64,000 nucleotides of DNA, from positions 620,001 through 684,000 of the forward strand of contig NZ_QVLS01000001.1 in assembly GCF_003417535.1 (NCBI RefSeq). Direction: 5' to 3'. Positions 1 through 5,687 of this stretch are shown one piece after another. The notes beneath the pieces are model-generated. The model was not told the DNA's origin, did no database searches, and was given only the letters and a program-made list of their open reading frames with translations. Position 1 is the first letter of the stretch. Every line of letters starts with the position of its first letter. The stretch is from Hydrogenophaga borbori. Lineage in GTDB: Bacteria > Pseudomonadota > Gammaproteobacteria > Burkholderiales > Burkholderiaceae_C. A program made the position numbers and the translations under genes.

Positions 1-910
1 ATTGTGCGGCCAGGCGCGCGAGCCTGCCATCGGCCTCGGCCATGTCCGCACGGCACCCGCGCAGCAGGGCCGCCAGGGCGGGCGCATCGCCCACCGGAAA
101 GTAACCGCCATAGGCCTCGCCCAACATGCCGACGTTGCCGTCGATGCGCGAGGCCAGCACCGGCGTGCCGCCGCGCACCGCCTCCAGCACGGCGTGCGCG
201 CCGCCCTCCAGGCGGCTGGCGTGCACCAGCACGTGCGCGCGCTGCAGGCGGCGCAGCACGTCGGCGTGCGGCAGCGGGCCCAGCCAGCGGTAGTGCGGGC
301 AGGCCGCGGCGGTGGCCCGCGCAGCCGCGCCGAGCGCCGGGTCCAGGGCATCGCCGATGTGGTCGATGCGGATGCCTTCGCCGGGGACGATCAGCCGCGC
401 CGCCTCGAACAGCGTCTGCGGCGATTTCTCGTCGCGCAGGTGGCCCACCATCAGCGCGCGCAGGAAGCGCCGGGGCTTGGGCAGGGGCGCGCGCGCGGGA
501 CCCGACTGGAACACCACGCGGCAGCGCTCGCGCAGCGGCGGCGGCAGCGCCAGCGGCCCGCGCTCTTGCAGCACCACCAGGCGGTGCGCGAGTGCCAGCG
601 AGCGGCGGGCGTCGGCGTCGCCCTGGATGTCGCGGTACAGGTCGGTGCCCGTCAGCACCACCACCAGGGGCGCGAGTGGGTGCCCCTTCGCCCAGGCCGC
701 GACGGACGCCGCCGAGCGGCGCGCGTGCAGCGCGATCAGTGCCGCCGGCGTCTCGTGCAGCCTGGCCTCGGGCCATTCGCGCACGACCACCACCCGATAA
801 TGCCCCGCGAGCAGGCGCGCCCAACGCCGCGCGGTCTGCCAATTGCCGTTGTTCGCGTCGGCCAGCGACGGCGTGACGATGCACAACAGGGGTTTGTGGA
901 TGGTGGCCAT
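1..910 (-). CDS. senB: Selenosugar synthase SenB, 3' end cut off by window
   Basis: GT-B type glycosyltransferase. It matches the family that makes a selenosugar from selenophosphate and a UDP-sugar, the first committed step of selenoneine synthesis. About 303 residues are visible and the family is only slightly longer, so only the C-terminus is missing. The N-terminus reads MATIHKPLLCIVTPSLADAN. A mid-protein GHLRDEKSP stretch and a C-terminal VHASRLEGGAHAVLEAVRGG donor-site motif, followed by GTPVLASRIDGNVGMLG, are characteristic. The ATG lies at 910 and overlaps the divergent senA start by 11 bases. Being beside an EgtB-like gene supports SenB over a generic glycosyltransferase. The selenophosphate synthetase gene (senC/selD) is not visible and may lie to the left. 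Confidence 0.88.
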   Translation of the reverse strand, partial: MATIHKPLLCIVTPSLADANNGNWQTARRWARLLAGHYRVVVVREWPEARLHETPAALIALHARRSAASVAAWAKGHPLAPLVVVLTGTDLYRDIQGDADARRSLALAHRLVVLQERGPLALPPPLRERCRVVFQSGPARAPLPKPRRFLRALMVGHLRDEKSPQTLFEAARLIVPGEGIRIDHIGDALDPALGAAARATAAACPHYRWLGPLPHADVLRRLQRAHVLVHASRLEGGAHAVLEAVRGGTPVLASRIDGNVGMLGEAYGGYFPVGDAPALAALLRGCRADMAEADGRLARLAAQ

Positions 911-2114
911 CGATCAAGGGATTCTGTCGGAGCCCGGCGACGCCTGCGGCGCGGCGGCCGAGCAGGCCCGCCGGGGTGGTCGGGAAACGCTGGCCGCCCT
1001 GCTGCGCCGCACGCGCGCGCGCACCCTGCGCCTGGCCCAGGCCTACGAGGCCGCGCTGGGCCCTGGCCTGCGCGTGCCGCGGTCGCCCGAACTCAACCCG
1101 CCGCTGTGGGAGCTGGGCCACCTCGGCTGGTTCGCCGACCGCTGGATCGCGCGCCAGCCCACGCCGCAACGCGAGCGCGGCGCGCGCGCCGACCCCCTGG
1201 CGCCGCTGGCGCCGGCGCGCCAGGCCGTGCGCGGCCTCGACGCCGACGCGCTCTACGACAGCAGCGCGGTGCCGCACGACGCCCGCTGGTCGCTGCCCCT
1301 GCCCGACCTGGCCACCACCCGCGCCGACCTGCAGGCCAGCCTGGACGACACCCTGGCCTGGCTGGCGCGCGCGCCCGAGACCGACGACGGCCTGTACGCC
1401 TTTCGCCTCGCCCTCTTCCACGAGGACATGCACAACGAGGCATGGATCTGCATGGCCCAGGTGCTGGACATCGATCCCGGCGAGGCCGCGCCCTCGCCCC
1501 CGGCCGCGCGCGAAGGCACGCTGCACCTGCCCGCCGGGCCCTGGACCCTGGGCTGGCGCGGCCCGGGCTTCGCCTTCGACAACGAATGGCCGGGCCAGAC
1601 CGTCGAGCTCGCGGCCGTCGACATCGATGCGGCCCCGGTGAGCTGGGCGCGCTACCTGCCCGCCATCGAGGCCGGGGCCGTGCCCGTGCCACGCTTCCTC
1701 CAACACAAGGCCGGCGGCTGGTGGCAGCGCGCCCAGGGCCGCTGGCGGGTGCTGGACCCGCAGGCGCCGGTCTGCCACGTCAGCGCCACCGAAGCCCAGG
1801 CCTGGTGCGCCTGGACCGGCCGGCGCCTGCCCACCGAAGCCGAATGGGAGCGCGCGGCGCTCAGCGCGCCCGGCTTCGCCTGGGGCCAGGTCTGGGAATG
1901 GACCGCTAGCGCCTTCGCCCCCCACCCGGGCTTCGAGCCGCACCCCTACCGCGACTACTCCCAGCCCTGGTTTGACGGCCGGCCCGTGCTCAAGGGCGCC
2001 AGCTGGGCCAGCGCGCCGCAGATGCGCCACCCGCGCTACCGCAATTTTTTCGGCGCGCCGCGCAACGACATCCTCGCGGGCTTTCGCAGCGTGGCCCTGC
2101 CGGCCGCGCGCTGA
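900..2114 (+). CDS. senA: Selenoneine synthase SenA (EgtB-like non-heme iron enzyme)
   Basis: About 404 residues. SenA joins a selenosugar to hercynine by oxidative C-Se bond formation, giving the selenoneine precursor. The layout is that of EgtB. An N-terminal DinB-like helical domain contains GHLGWFADRW (His about 74) and HEDMHNE (His about 174 and 178, the HX3HXE iron-ligand pattern). A C-terminal FGE-sulfatase domain carries RRLPTEAEWERAAL, VWEWTASAF and a terminal GFRSVALP. Pairing with senB favours SenA over ergothioneine EgtB. The start is uncertain: ATG at 900 lies inside the senB 5' end, and GTG at 903 is the alternative. The import genes follow about 90 bases downstream, probably as one operon. 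Confidence 0.88.
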   Translation: MVAIDQGILSEPGDACGAAAEQARRGGRETLAALLRRTRARTLRLAQAYEAALGPGLRVPRSPELNPPLWELGHLGWFADRWIARQPTPQRERGARADPLAPLAPARQAVRGLDADALYDSSAVPHDARWSLPLPDLATTRADLQASLDDTLAWLARAPETDDGLYAFRLALFHEDMHNEAWICMAQVLDIDPGEAAPSPPAAREGTLHLPAGPWTLGWRGPGFAFDNEWPGQTVELAAVDIDAAPVSWARYLPAIEAGAVPVPRFLQHKAGGWWQRAQGRWRVLDPQAPVCHVSATEAQAWCAWTGRRLPTEAEWERAALSAPGFAWGQVWEWTASAFAPHPGFEPHPYRDYSQPWFDGRPVLKGASWASAPQMRHPRYRNFFGAPRNDILAGFRSVALPAAR

Positions 2115-2205
2115 ACGCGCCCCGGGTGGCGCGGGCCGGCCTTGCGGCCGGGATGGGCGTTCGCGGTCTAATCCGGGCTTCGTCCCCGCACCGGAGCCAC
2201 CCGTC

Positions 2206-3039
2206 TTGGAGATCGCCCTCGAACAGCTCAGCGCGCGCCACCCCGCGGCGCGCGCCACCCAGCCCGCCGCCGTGCAGGACCTGAGCCTGCGCGTGGCCGC
2301 GGGCGAACAGCTCGCGGTGATTGGCCCGTCGGGCGCTGGCAAGACCACGCTGCTGCAGCTCATGGCCTGCGCCATGCCGCCCAGCGAAGGGCGCCTGAGG
2401 CTCGATGGCGCCGATCCCTGGACGCTGCCGCGCGACGAGCTGCGCCGCCTGCGCGGGCGCCTGCTGCTCGCACCGCAGGTCCCGCCGCTGCCGCCGCGCC
2501 AGCGCGTGGTCACGGCCGTGCTGGCGGGCCGGCTGCCCGCCATGGGCCTGTGGGCCAGCCTGCGTTCGCTGCTGCGCCCGAGCGACATCCCCGCCGCCTT
2601 CGCCGCGCTCGAGCGCTTCGACCTCGGCGACAAGCTCTTCGAGCGCGTGGACCGCCTCTCCGGCGGCGAGCGCCAGCGCGTGGGCCTGGCGCGCACCCTG
2701 CTGGCGCCGGCCACCGCCTGGCTGGTGGACGAACCGCTCTCGGCCCTGGACCCGACGCGCGCGCGCCAGGCCATCCGCACCCTCGTCGAGGGCGCGCGCG
2801 AGCGCCGCGCCACGCTGGTGGCCACCCTGCACCAGGTGGACGTGGCGCTGGCGCACTTCCCGCGCATCGTGGGCCTGCGCGACGGCCGCCTGGCCTTCGA
2901 CCTGCCCGCCGCCGAAGTCACGCGCGAACGCCTGGCGCGCCTGTACGACCGGTTCGAACACGAGCTGCAAGGCGGCGCGCCCGCGACCCCATCGCCCGAG
3001 CCCGGGGCGGCCGTGCCGCCCATGCTGATGTGCCGCTGA
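2206..3039 (+). CDS. ABC transporter ATP-binding protein, PhnC-like (putative selenium oxyanion import)
   Basis: A 277-residue ABC ATPase with Walker A GPSGAGKT, signature LSGGERQRVGLARTL, Walker B WLVDEPLSALD and the switch histidine in TLHQVD. It resembles PhnC of phosphonate/phosphite importers. No ATG or GTG fits the N-terminus. TTG at 2206 does, with GGAG about eight bases upstream. Two PhnE-type permeases follow with almost no gap. The same transporter class is annotated in many genomes as putative selenate import because it neighbours selD-type genes. Position right after senA makes supply of selenium for selenoneine the best inference. Phosphonate or phosphite import remains possible. 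Confidence 0.8.
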   Translation: MEIALEQLSARHPAARATQPAAVQDLSLRVAAGEQLAVIGPSGAGKTTLLQLMACAMPPSEGRLRLDGADPWTLPRDELRRLRGRLLLAPQVPPLPPRQRVVTAVLAGRLPAMGLWASLRSLLRPSDIPAAFAALERFDLGDKLFERVDRLSGGERQRVGLARTLLAPATAWLVDEPLSALDPTRARQAIRTLVEGARERRATLVATLHQVDVALAHFPRIVGLRDGRLAFDLPAAEVTRERLARLYDRFEHELQGGAPATPSPEPGAAVPPMLMCR

Positions 3040-3047
3040 AGCCCGCA

Positions 3048-3887
3048 ATGAACACCGCCCCGGCCCCGCGCGCCGCTCCCACCCGCGACCCGGCCTGGCT
3101 GTCGCGGGTGTTCTGGATCGGCGCCGCGCTGGTGATGCTGTGGCCGCTGGGCGTGGCCACCGAGTTCCGGCCCTGGGTGCTGTTCGAGCCCCGCAACCTG
3201 CGCGTCTCGGCGCAGTTTCTGGGCAGCTTCCTGCCGCCCGCGCGGGACGGCGAATTCCTCGCGCTGGTGGCGCGAGAGACCTGGCGCACGGTGGCCATTG
3301 CCACCGCCGGCATGGCGCTGGCCATGCTGATCGCCGTGCCGCTCACGCTCGCCGCCACGCGCGTGCTCTCGCTGTCCGCCCTGTCGGGGCGCATGGCGCG
3401 CGGGCCCTGGGTGGTGCGCCAGGCGGTGCGCTGGTTGCTGATCGTGCTGCGCAGCGTCCCCGAGCTGGTCTGGGCCCTGGTCTTCGTGCGCGTGGTGGGC
3501 CTGGGACCCACCGCCGGCGTGCTGGCCATCGCCCTCACCTACGGCGGCATGCTCGGCAAGGTCTACGGCGAGATCCTGGAAAGCGGCGAGCCCCACGCCA
3601 CGCAGACCCTGCTGCGCAACGGCGCCTCGCGCCTGCAGGCCTTCTGCTACGGCCTGCTGCCCACCAACGCGGCCGAGCTCACCAGCTACACCGTCTACCG
3701 CTGGGAATGCGCCATCCGCTCTTCGGTGGTGCTGGGCTTCGTGGGCGCGGGCGGCCTGGGTCAGCAGCTCGACAACTCCATGAAGATGTTCAACGGCGGC
3801 GAGGTGGCCACCATGTTGCTGGTTTTCATGGCCCTGGTGGCGCTGGCCGACCGCGTGAGCGCGGGACTGCGAAAGGCGCTCGGATGA
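3048..3887 (+). CDS. PhnE-type ABC permease, first copy
   Basis: A 279-residue inner-membrane permease with about six hydrophobic segments. The coupling-helix region reads EILESGEPHATQTLLRNGAS, and an SYTVYRWECAIRSS stretch typical of PhnE follows, ending in GFVGAGGLGQQL. It starts at ATG 3048, eight bases after the ATPase stop, and its stop overlaps the next ATG as ATGA at 3884, which implies translational coupling. With the second permease it should form a heterodimeric channel. No periplasmic binding protein gene is present on this side of the locus. Confidence 0.85.
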   Translation: MNTAPAPRAAPTRDPAWLSRVFWIGAALVMLWPLGVATEFRPWVLFEPRNLRVSAQFLGSFLPPARDGEFLALVARETWRTVAIATAGMALAMLIAVPLTLAATRVLSLSALSGRMARGPWVVRQAVRWLLIVLRSVPELVWALVFVRVVGLGPTAGVLAIALTYGGMLGKVYGEILESGEPHATQTLLRNGASRLQAFCYGLLPTNAAELTSYTVYRWECAIRSSVVLGFVGAGGLGQQLDNSMKMFNGGEVATMLLVFMALVALADRVSAGLRKALG

Positions 3888-4693
3888 ATCCCTGGCCGCC
3901 CGCCCCGCCCTCCCTGCTCGACCCGCGCGGCAAGGCCCTGTGGTTCCTGCTGGCGCTGGCCGCGCTGGTCGTCGCCAGCTTCTGGTCGCTGGACCTGCAG
4001 TGGCGTCAGTTCCTGTCGCTGGACGCGGCGCGCAGCATGGGCCGCTTCCTCGGCGAGTTCTTCCCGCCCGACACCTCGCCCGCGTTCTTGCGCCGCGTGG
4101 CCCAGGGCACCTGGGAAACGCTGGCCATGTCAGCCCTGGGCACCGGCCTGGCGGCCGCGGCGGGCCTGGCGCTGGCGCTGCCGGCCAGCCGGCGGCCCGG
4201 CGGTGGTGCGTCCTGGGCGCGCGGCCCCACGCGGCTGCTGCTCAATGCGCTGCGCAGCATCCCCGAGCTGGTGTGGGCCGCGCTGCTGCTCATCAGCGCC
4301 GGCCTGGGGCCTTTCGCCGGCACCCTGGCCCTGGCCTTCCACACGGCCGGCGTGCTGGGCCGCCTGTTCGCCGAGGCCATCGAGAACGCCCCGCCCGGCC
4401 CGGCCGCCGCGCTGCGCGTGCAGGGCGTGGGCGGCGTACGGGTGTTCTGCTACGCCACGCTGCCGCAGGTGCTGCCGCAGCTGCTGAGCTACACCCTCTA
4501 CCGCTGGGAGAACAACATCCGCGCCGCCGCCGTGCTGGGCGTGGTGGGCGCGGGCGGCCTGGGCCAGATGCTGGCCTTTCACATGGGCCTGTTCCACATG
4601 GGCAAGACGGCCACCGTCCTCGGCGCGATGCTGCTGATGGTGGCCCTGGTGGACGCCGCCAGCCACGGGGCCCGGCGGTGGATGACGCGCTGA
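3884..4693 (+). CDS. PhnE-type ABC permease, second copy
   Basis: A 269-residue permease homologous to the preceding one. It shares SIPELVWAALLL, LSYTLYRWENNIRAAAVLG and VVGAGGLGQML, and has about six membrane segments. Its start overlaps the previous stop by four bases. It is the last gene of the senA-ATPase-permease-permease run, since the next gene lies on the other strand and ends only nine bases away. The substrate is inferred from context as selenate or selenite. The family itself is known for phosphonates, phosphite and related oxyanions. Confidence 0.84.
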   Translation: MNPWPPAPPSLLDPRGKALWFLLALAALVVASFWSLDLQWRQFLSLDAARSMGRFLGEFFPPDTSPAFLRRVAQGTWETLAMSALGTGLAAAAGLALALPASRRPGGGASWARGPTRLLLNALRSIPELVWAALLLISAGLGPFAGTLALAFHTAGVLGRLFAEAIENAPPGPAAALRVQGVGGVRVFCYATLPQVLPQLLSYTLYRWENNIRAAAVLGVVGAGGLGQMLAFHMGLFHMGKTATVLGAMLLMVALVDAASHGARRWMTR

Positions 4694-4702
4694 GCCGCGC
4701 GA

Positions 4703-5134
4703 CTACGCAGACGCCTTGTACAACAGCCGCCGGCCGGGTGCGGCGGGCATGGGCAGCAGGAGGGCGTTGCGGACGTGTGGATCGTCGTCGAGCTTGAACA
4801 GCAGAGGTCCGACCGACGGGGCCTCGCACGGCGCTGGCGCCCACAGCGCGCCAATCCAGCTCAAGCTCCAACTCGGGCCTGAATCGCGGCGCCGGTCCAG
4901 ACGGGCAATGCCGGTGAGGTTCGCGACGGGAATCTGGGCCAGCATGTCCAGCAAGGTGGAATCCCACGCCACCAGGGAGGTCTGCGAGACCTTCTTGCCG
5001 CGGTAGGAAACGTCGTAGACAAGCAGGTACCAGGGCCGCTCCATCGAGAGCGTGATGGCCTGCCAGTGGCTCTGGCGAGGGGCGACCTGAGAAGGGTGAA
5101 AGTGCTGGACGAGGCCGGGGGCGGTGATGAACAA
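4703..5134 (-). CDS. Hypothetical protein
   Basis: A 143-residue protein I do not recognise. It has no signal peptide or membrane segment. The middle reads PWYLLVYDVSYRGKKVSQTS and the C-terminal half is rich in Pro and Leu. The only upstream start is TTG at 5134. An internal ATG at about 5063 would remove the first 24 residues or so. Base composition is less GC-biased than the flanking genes. It is transcribed away from the XRE regulator, and the two share an AT-rich intergenic region, so they may form a regulated pair. No toxin or antitoxin fold can be assigned. Confidence 0.5.
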   Translation of the reverse strand: MFITAPGLVQHFHPSQVAPRQSHWQAITLSMERPWYLLVYDVSYRGKKVSQTSLVAWDSTLLDMLAQIPVANLTGIARLDRRRDSGPSWSLSWIGALWAPAPCEAPSVGPLLFKLDDDPHVRNALLLPMPAAPGRRLLYKASA

Positions 5135-5177
5135 GTGCGAACTCCCAAAATCCCAAAGCCACCCATTTATAGCTCAA

Positions 5178-5206
5178 ATTATCAGTTTAAGCGCATGCAA
5201 GGCCAA
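5178..5206 (-). promoter_or_regulatory. Candidate sigma-70 promoter for the 4703-5134 gene
   Basis: On the minus strand, TTGGCC (5201-5206) and GATAAT (5178-5183) are separated by exactly 17 bases. They lie in an AT-rich stretch rare in this window, upstream of the divergent hypothetical gene. This is a consensus-based guess only. Confidence 0.35.
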
Positions 5207-5216
5207 CACTTTTTTG

Positions 5217-5687
5217 GTGTCTGAACAAGCATCTGAAATACCGCCCTTCCTTGCCCCGCTGGCGGCGAACCTCGTTGCTCTTCGAGCAAAAGGGAACTGG
5301 AGCATCAGTGCGCTGGCGGAGCAAGCGCGTGTGAATCGACGAATGATTCGGCTGGTGGAACAGGGGCAGGTCAACGCCTCGCTGAAGACGATAGACAAGT
5401 TGGCTCGCGCCCTCGGCGTCACGGCGGGCTCACTGGTAGGAAACCGGCCGCTGGCCCGGCAAGAAGGTGATGCCTTGATCGAGGAAGTTGTGGCGAGGAA
5501 CCTTGTCTCGGCGAGGAAGGGGCTCAAGCTGACGCAAGAGAAGTTGAGTCAGCAGTCGGGCGTCAACATGCCCGCCATCGCCGACATCGAACGTCAAGCG
5601 CGCAACCCCTCTTTGCTCACCCTTGCAAAGCTTGCCGCTTCGCTCGGCTTGTCACTCGAAGCGCTTCTGACCGACTACCGTTCCTAG
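5217..5687 (+). CDS. XRE-family regulator with two HTH domains
   Basis: About 156 residues from GTG 5217. Two tandem Cro/C1-type helix-turn-helix domains are visible. The first has SALAEQARVNRRMIRLVEQG and ends in ALGVTAGSLV. The second has LTQEKLSQQSGVNMPAIADI and ends in SLGLSLEALL. It probably acts as a dimeric or pseudodimeric repressor of the divergent neighbour. An upstream in-frame ATG at 5127 would add 30 residues but would read through the AT-rich promoter-like region and overlap the divergent gene, so I prefer GTG. Codon use is less GC-rich than neighbours, which fits acquisition by transfer. Confidence 0.78.
   Translation: MSEQASEIPPFLAPLAANLVALRAKGNWSISALAEQARVNRRMIRLVEQGQVNASLKTIDKLARALGVTAGSLVGNRPLARQEGDALIEEVVARNLVSARKGLKLTQEKLSQQSGVNMPAIADIERQARNPSLLTLAKLAASLGLSLEALLTDYRS

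Follow-up and report, generated by a model that had tools for sequence, protein, structure and literature searches.

The stretch analysed here, called the window throughout, comprises 64,000 nucleotides of Hydrogenophaga borbori (bases 620001-684000 of contig C1, NZ_QVLS01000001.1, in a genome of 4.58 Mb), and its left end carries a locus for the biosynthesis of the selenium antioxidant selenoneine (sen), followed by genes of an ATP-binding cassette (ABC) transporter. The present data make it probable that this is a sen locus joined to the membrane half of a selenium-oxyanion importer, most probably for selenite, the likely substrate-binding partner of which is encoded at a distance on the same contig. 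An earlier note on this DNA had proposed a functional module in which a built-in transport operon supplies selenium to the enzymes SenA and SenB. The enzyme identities and the idea of a module stand, on the strength of family models and an adjoining selD; of the built-in operon, the ATPase and two permeases are in place, whereas the binding protein is absent and its likely counterpart lies 560 kb off. The genes concerned are:

Contig C1, 618923-619849 (extent of the model match; gene at L006:11313-12386), minus strand: selD; TIGR00476 431.9 bits (cut-off 125), NF002098 542.1 bits (cut-off 299).
Window 1-910, minus strand: senB, selenosugar synthase; N-terminal 303 of 342 amino acids inside the window, the remainder past the left edge.
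Window 900-2114, plus strand: senA, selenoneine synthase by family model; ATG start; NF041186 442.8 bits (cut-off 420).
Window 2206-3039, plus strand: ABC ATPase, PhnC-like; TTG start; TIGR02315 178.9 bits (below the cut-off of 266.1).
Window 3048-3887, plus strand: ABC permease 1, PhnE-like; TIGR01097 197.6 bits (below the cut-off of 216.7).
Window 3884-4693, plus strand: ABC permease 2, PhnE-like; TIGR01097 259.3 bits (over the same cut-off).

SenB scores 399.8 bits to TIGR04348 over its part inside the window and 429.2 bits in the genome search (cut-off 300), and its best matches in the PDB are the solved SenB structures 8fbx and 8jjq (E < 1e-117). Its residues 235-240 read EGGAHA, five of the six letters of the SenB motif EGGAHV described in PMC10891094, with the final letter differing. 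That the EgtB-like protein is SenA, as the earlier note had it, is borne out: a plain EgtB was considered and ruled out, as the protein passes NF041186 and fails the EgtB model TIGR03440 (188.6 bits, cut-off 360), while the genome's own EgtB gives the reverse pattern (TIGR03440 525.1, above 360; NF041186 354.7, below 420). The best PDB matches of SenA are the solved SenA structures 8ryz and 8k5i, and its H74, H174 and H178, which we take to be the iron-binding histidines, are invariant across 16 aligned sequences, the window's included. Its closest titled relative, among the best 80 of 540 records, is that of Hydrogenophaga intermedia S1 (78% identity). By its family model, SenA of this locus would make selenoneine from hercynine and a selenosugar, and hercynine can likely be made, since an EgtD (308.1 bits, cut-off 290.9) is paired with the true EgtB on contig C6. 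The selD that the note had suggested looking for to the left is encoded immediately outside the window, where its GTG start overlaps the senB stop by 4 bases. Two outcomes that would have told against the note's reading, a best score to ergothioneine EgtB and a genome devoid of selD, thus did not occur. A SelU match is present in the genome (E 1.3e-101), and no SelA match was found in the searched genome, in a search that detected the E. coli control; selenium is therefore likely used for selenoneine and tRNA selenouridine, and selenocysteine was rejected as a destination of imported selenium here. The starts of the divergent senB and senA share 11 bases head to head (window 900-910), so that either promoter would have to sit within the opposite gene. 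The same overlap is present in H. intermedia. The corresponding pattern ATG-N5-CAT lies near the start in just 11 of 82 senA/senB junctions, and the overlap is thus not a general feature.

The divergent arrangement of the two enzyme genes, with the ATPase and two PhnE-type permeases after senA on one strand, is as first described, coordinates and models agreeing. The ATPase starts 91 bases after senA, the two permeases share a 4-base ATGA overlap, and senA and phnC may be co-transcribed. All three transporter reading frames are intact, and the ATPase keeps its Walker A (GPSGAGKT), signature (LSGGE) and Walker B (LVDEP) motifs. The transporter could instead be a phosphonate or phosphite importer of the usual kind, adjoining the sen genes by chance, given that its proteins are of the PhnC/PhnE/PhnD superfamily and that permease 2 exceeds the PhnE cut-off. 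However, the ATPase and permease 1 both fall below their family cut-offs, so that the operon does not encode the full above-cut-off complement of PhnC, PhnE and PhnD expected of a PhnCDE phosphonate importer, and a separate ATPase-PhnD-PhnE set, with a PhnE of 299.1 bits and over cut-off, is found on contig C23. Such a chance neighbour is considered unlikely, and further evidence on it is given with the binding proteins below.

The earlier note had suggested looking left of the window for a binding protein. The transporter operon contains none, and the genome's matches to the Pfam PhnD-type family (10, of which 8 are over cut-off) and to TIGR04553 all lie elsewhere. A sole TIGR04553 match in the genome exceeds the cut-off of 250, at C1:59014-59787 with 403.5 bits, about 560 kb from the permeases, and two others reach 127.9 and 84.4 bits. 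Compared model against model, the same protein scores 403.0 bits to TIGR04553 and only 165.9 to PhnD (cut-off 261.1), which argues against the phosphonate or phosphite alternative. It is likely the partner of the sen-locus permeases. Its gene is flanked on one side by a YdjA-like nitroreductase, which shares 34% identity with E. coli YdjA and stays below the NF008088 cut-off (97.4 bits against 183), and ydjA adjoins selD in E. coli K-12. On the other side lies a regulator gene together with an ABC set of the tungstate type. A partnership with that set was considered and rejected because a TupA-like protein, recognised by eye and not by a model, follows it. This neighbourhood (L021:10305-15547) also includes a SulP-type sulfate permease, again by eye, and the C-terminal half of the regulator resembles a molybdopterin biosynthesis protein.

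The proposed link between the transporter and selenium use is backed by a comparison of 299 family genomes, each searched for permease 1, the binding protein, SenB, SelD and SelU (the SelU matches entering no count), and of 80 SenA loci. Permease 1, counted at 254 bits or more with the second-permease and distant PhnE rows (about 160 bits or less) excluded, has relatives of 56-84% identity in 129 of the 299 genomes (128 besides this one), and the TIGR04553 binding protein occurs in 132, a second, below-cut-off copy in G058 being left out of the counts. The two are found together in 128 genomes and singly in only 5 of the 133 with either. They lie no more than 3 kb apart in 120 of the 128, in contrast to the separation seen here; of the other eight, this genome (G000), G074, G156 and G233 have them truly apart, contig ends not being the reason, and in G009, G137, G239 and G279 contig ends may explain the separation. 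Permease 1 is present in 85 of 111 SenB genomes (110 with SenB over cut-off and one, G291, below it) versus 44 of 188 without SenB (Fisher p 1.2e-19, uncorrected for relatedness, the test taking related genomes as independent). The distance between SenB and permease 1 is at most 12 kb in 61 of these 85; the two are on different contigs in 22, and in the remaining 2 they share a contig at a greater distance. SenB in turn is found 5 kb or less from SelD in 48 of the 52 genomes for which a SelD position was listed. One SenB in the survey (G266:C132:25019-25951) has a single internal TGA, and one SelD match (L131 of G209, 11-1067) is in two pieces; either could reflect sequencing error or decay.

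Among genomes without SenB, 47 have permease 1 or the binding protein; SelD has a listed place in 32 of these, and in 19 of the 32 the transporter is no more than 5 kb from it. In G156 and G297, where that place is unlisted, SelD stands beside the transporter in the fetched stretch, and SelU is at times nearby in addition to SelD. These SenB-less loci bear on a further scenario, in which the transporter imports an organic compound of the pathway (selenoneine, ergothioneine or hercynine) and not a selenium oxyanion. Its placement in a selenoneine locus, and the existence of bacterial ergothioneine importers (PMC9732360), would be in keeping with this; however, a transporter that stays beside SelD where SenB is lacking, and the small, tyrosine-capped oxyanion kind of pocket described below, make it very improbable.

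The SenA loci, taken as the best 80 of 540 titled records and including many metagenome assemblies, show the same association from the side of the enzymes. SenB accompanies SenA in 71 of the 80 (the 9 without it were excluded), and 59 of these 71 are scorable, 12 being too short. The transporter is present in 41 of the 59, with a binding protein in 37 and without one in 4, namely H. intermedia S1, MER 62, Roseateles puraquae and a near-identical metagenome locus. The usual order is selD-senB / senA-egtD-SBP-phnC-phnE-phnE (SBP, substrate-binding protein), and egtD adjoins senA on the strand opposite to senA in 49 of 71 loci (for example L044, L048, L121 and L122); the four egtD copies tested, two from SenA loci and two from G280 and G114, all exceed the EgtD cut-off. 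From the window and H. intermedia loci egtD and the binding-protein gene are both gone. Two loci from Rhodocyclales (L090 and L110; Aromatoleum buckelii and a metagenome assembly) have the entire transporter at the senB end instead, oppositely oriented, which suggests independent linkage. The recurrence of association with SenB, SelD, SelU and SelA/SelB in several arrangements also argues against an ordinary phosphonate or phosphite importer.

In principle, a half transporter that has no working binding protein could be a decaying remnant, and the locus does lack the gene, the same loss being seen in both H. intermedia strains. However, the three frames are intact with the ATPase motifs kept, permease 1 and the binding protein rarely occur singly, as counted above, and separated binding proteins can be located. 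When nine genomes were searched with TIGR04553, seven with transporter loci lacking the binding protein and two controls, exactly one protein over cut-off was found in each of the nine, and in all seven of the former it lies elsewhere than the transporter. A remnant is accordingly regarded as quite improbable. The lone binding protein of H. intermedia S1 is 93-94% identical to that of the window genome and has the same neighbours. In MER 62 (G300, L154) the orphan neighbourhood is like that of L021, with flanking genes 70-97% identical, and the binding protein is 65% identical and of the other pocket type, either by allele swap or by independent insertion. In R. puraquae, SelB (446.5 bits) is encoded 1 kb from the lone binding protein and is followed by SelA (561.9 bits), each exceeding its cut-off, and in the near-identical metagenome genome a SelA-like frame is seen by eye near the counterpart of that binding protein. 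A YdjA-like reductase adjoins the lone binding protein in 5 of 8 genomes (the window genome, S1, R. puraquae, its metagenome twin and G156), with the reductase first in Hydrogenophaga and the binding protein first in Roseateles and G156; beside in-operon binding proteins none was found among the fetched loci. The loci of G301 and G302 are near-identical and so count as one lineage.

The binding pocket suggests a class of ligand. Pm_PhnD of Prochlorococcus (5LQ5) is described in PMC5700983 as a phosphite binder whose pocket comprises D13, F90, H158, D205, Y206 and an STS-H motif. In the alignment of the distant protein to 5LQ5, D38 corresponds to D13, F116 to F90, H176 to H158, D223 to D205 and Y224 to Y206, and S145-T146-S147 is the STS of STS-H. 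All 64 binding-protein sequences aligned (L021:9428-10291 and 63 relatives) keep F116, the S-T-S, H176 and the tyrosine cap Y224. Positions 38 and 223 are D/D in 39 and E/N in 25 with no mixed case, the 25 E38/N223 sequences forming one clade, and the two pocket types may differ in ligand or charge state. From these residues the pocket is predicted to be of a phosphite-like, tyrosine-capped small-oxyanion type, which would hold a small anion whose non-oxygen face points to the tyrosine; this fits phosphite and, by inference, selenite. By comparison, the PhnD-like protein on C23 of this genome carries T and D at the two capping positions, the pair described for E. coli PhnD, which further disfavours the phosphonate or phosphite importer as an explanation for the sen-locus genes, and another on C3 has S and S.

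Several observations weigh against a selenium-oxyanion importer at the sen locus and should be considered together. The pocket has the residues of a phosphite binder and on its own would suit phosphite, and selenium is assigned because of genome context and not because of the pocket. That context is itself uneven: a strong permease 1 relative is absent from 26 of the 111 SenB genomes, including G208 of the same genus, so that selenoneine genes can persist without it, and in 18 of the 59 scorable SenB-bearing SenA loci the transporter is absent from the fetched flank. SelD occurs in 130 of 132 binding-protein genomes (the two without it, G083 and G104, being assemblies of 670 and 850 contigs), but also in 143 of 167 others and in 273 of 299 overall; as it is near universal, co-occurrence with SelD carries little information and nearness tells more. 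G041, which is 80% complete, has permease 1 with no binding protein over cut-off, as a decaying remnant would. With regard to the distant partner, no YdjA-like neighbour is found at three of the eight lone binding proteins (MER 62, G074 and G233), and G074, G156, G301 and G302 have binding proteins that group as a single clade in a quick tree (Shimodaira-Hasegawa approximate likelihood ratio test 99) while their permeases do not, which makes replacement by a stand-alone copy as likely as relocation there. Finally, a consensus scan of window 700-5200 gave no promoter and no terminator site, so that co-transcription of senA and phnC is suggested only by the short gap between them.

The available data nonetheless allow a model of selenium acquisition to be drawn. 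Under the selenium-oxyanion reading, the TIGR04553 binding protein would capture selenite in the periplasm, and the permeases and ATPase of the sen locus would carry it inward. Selenite could then be reduced to selenide by cell reductants, perhaps including the YdjA-like enzyme, after which SelD would form selenophosphate, SenB would form the selenosugar, and SenA would couple the selenosugar to hercynine, the product of EgtD. Selenium for 2-selenouridine in tRNA would come through this importer as well. A broader proposal, for and against which the evidence is about evenly balanced, is that the family constitutes a dedicated high-affinity selenite importer of bacteria in which a tyrosine-capped phosphite-type pocket has been reused for selenite. 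Its movable, shared binding protein would repeatedly have left the permease operon and found a new neighbour in a YdjA-type reductase or in selA-selB, one importer thereby serving selenoneine, selenouridine and selenocysteine.

In comparison with known systems, the sen cluster of Variovorax paradoxus (senA, senB and senC/selD) encodes an identical set of three enzymes, to which the family models assign the same reactions (PMC9814287, PMC10891094); unlike that cluster, the present one has an importer ATPase and two permeases after senA. PMC9814287 describes no transporter and PMC10891094 does not contain the word "transporter". The lone protein passes the NCBIfam model TIGR04553, "putative selenate ABC transporter substrate-binding protein", a hypothetical equivalog. 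PhnCDE and PtxABC importers share the superfamily, the ATPase-permease arrangement and the Pm_PhnD-like pocket residues; however, the sen-locus transporter differs from them in the below-cut-off ATPase and permease 1, in an operon devoid of a binding protein and in its adjoining selenium genes. The predicted selenium transporter YedE was likewise put forward because it is encoded near SelD and other genes of selenium use, but it consists of one membrane protein with ten transmembrane regions, sulfur-transporter-like, and might be an exporter (PMC5322559). A 2026 review states that a specific high-affinity selenium transport system has not been identified in prokaryotes (PMC13188914). Among the open-licence papers listed, no description of a selenium ABC importer tied to SelD or selenoneine was recognised, nor was a paper found there that treats ydjA together with selD, nitroreductase and selenite. 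The enzymes and the pathway are already known, and the split-importer variant is new. The comparison provides the genes, a likely binding partner and a likely ligand class, making a direct bench test possible, with genomes that have, lack or have split the importer as natural controls. Hydrogenophaga pseudoflava (L044) carries the importer, SelD, SenB, EgtD and SenA in one stretch, a whole predicted selenoneine cassette from import to product. Downstream of the permeases in the window, a frame at 5124-5687 appears regulator-like by eye, with two helix-turn-helix stretches.

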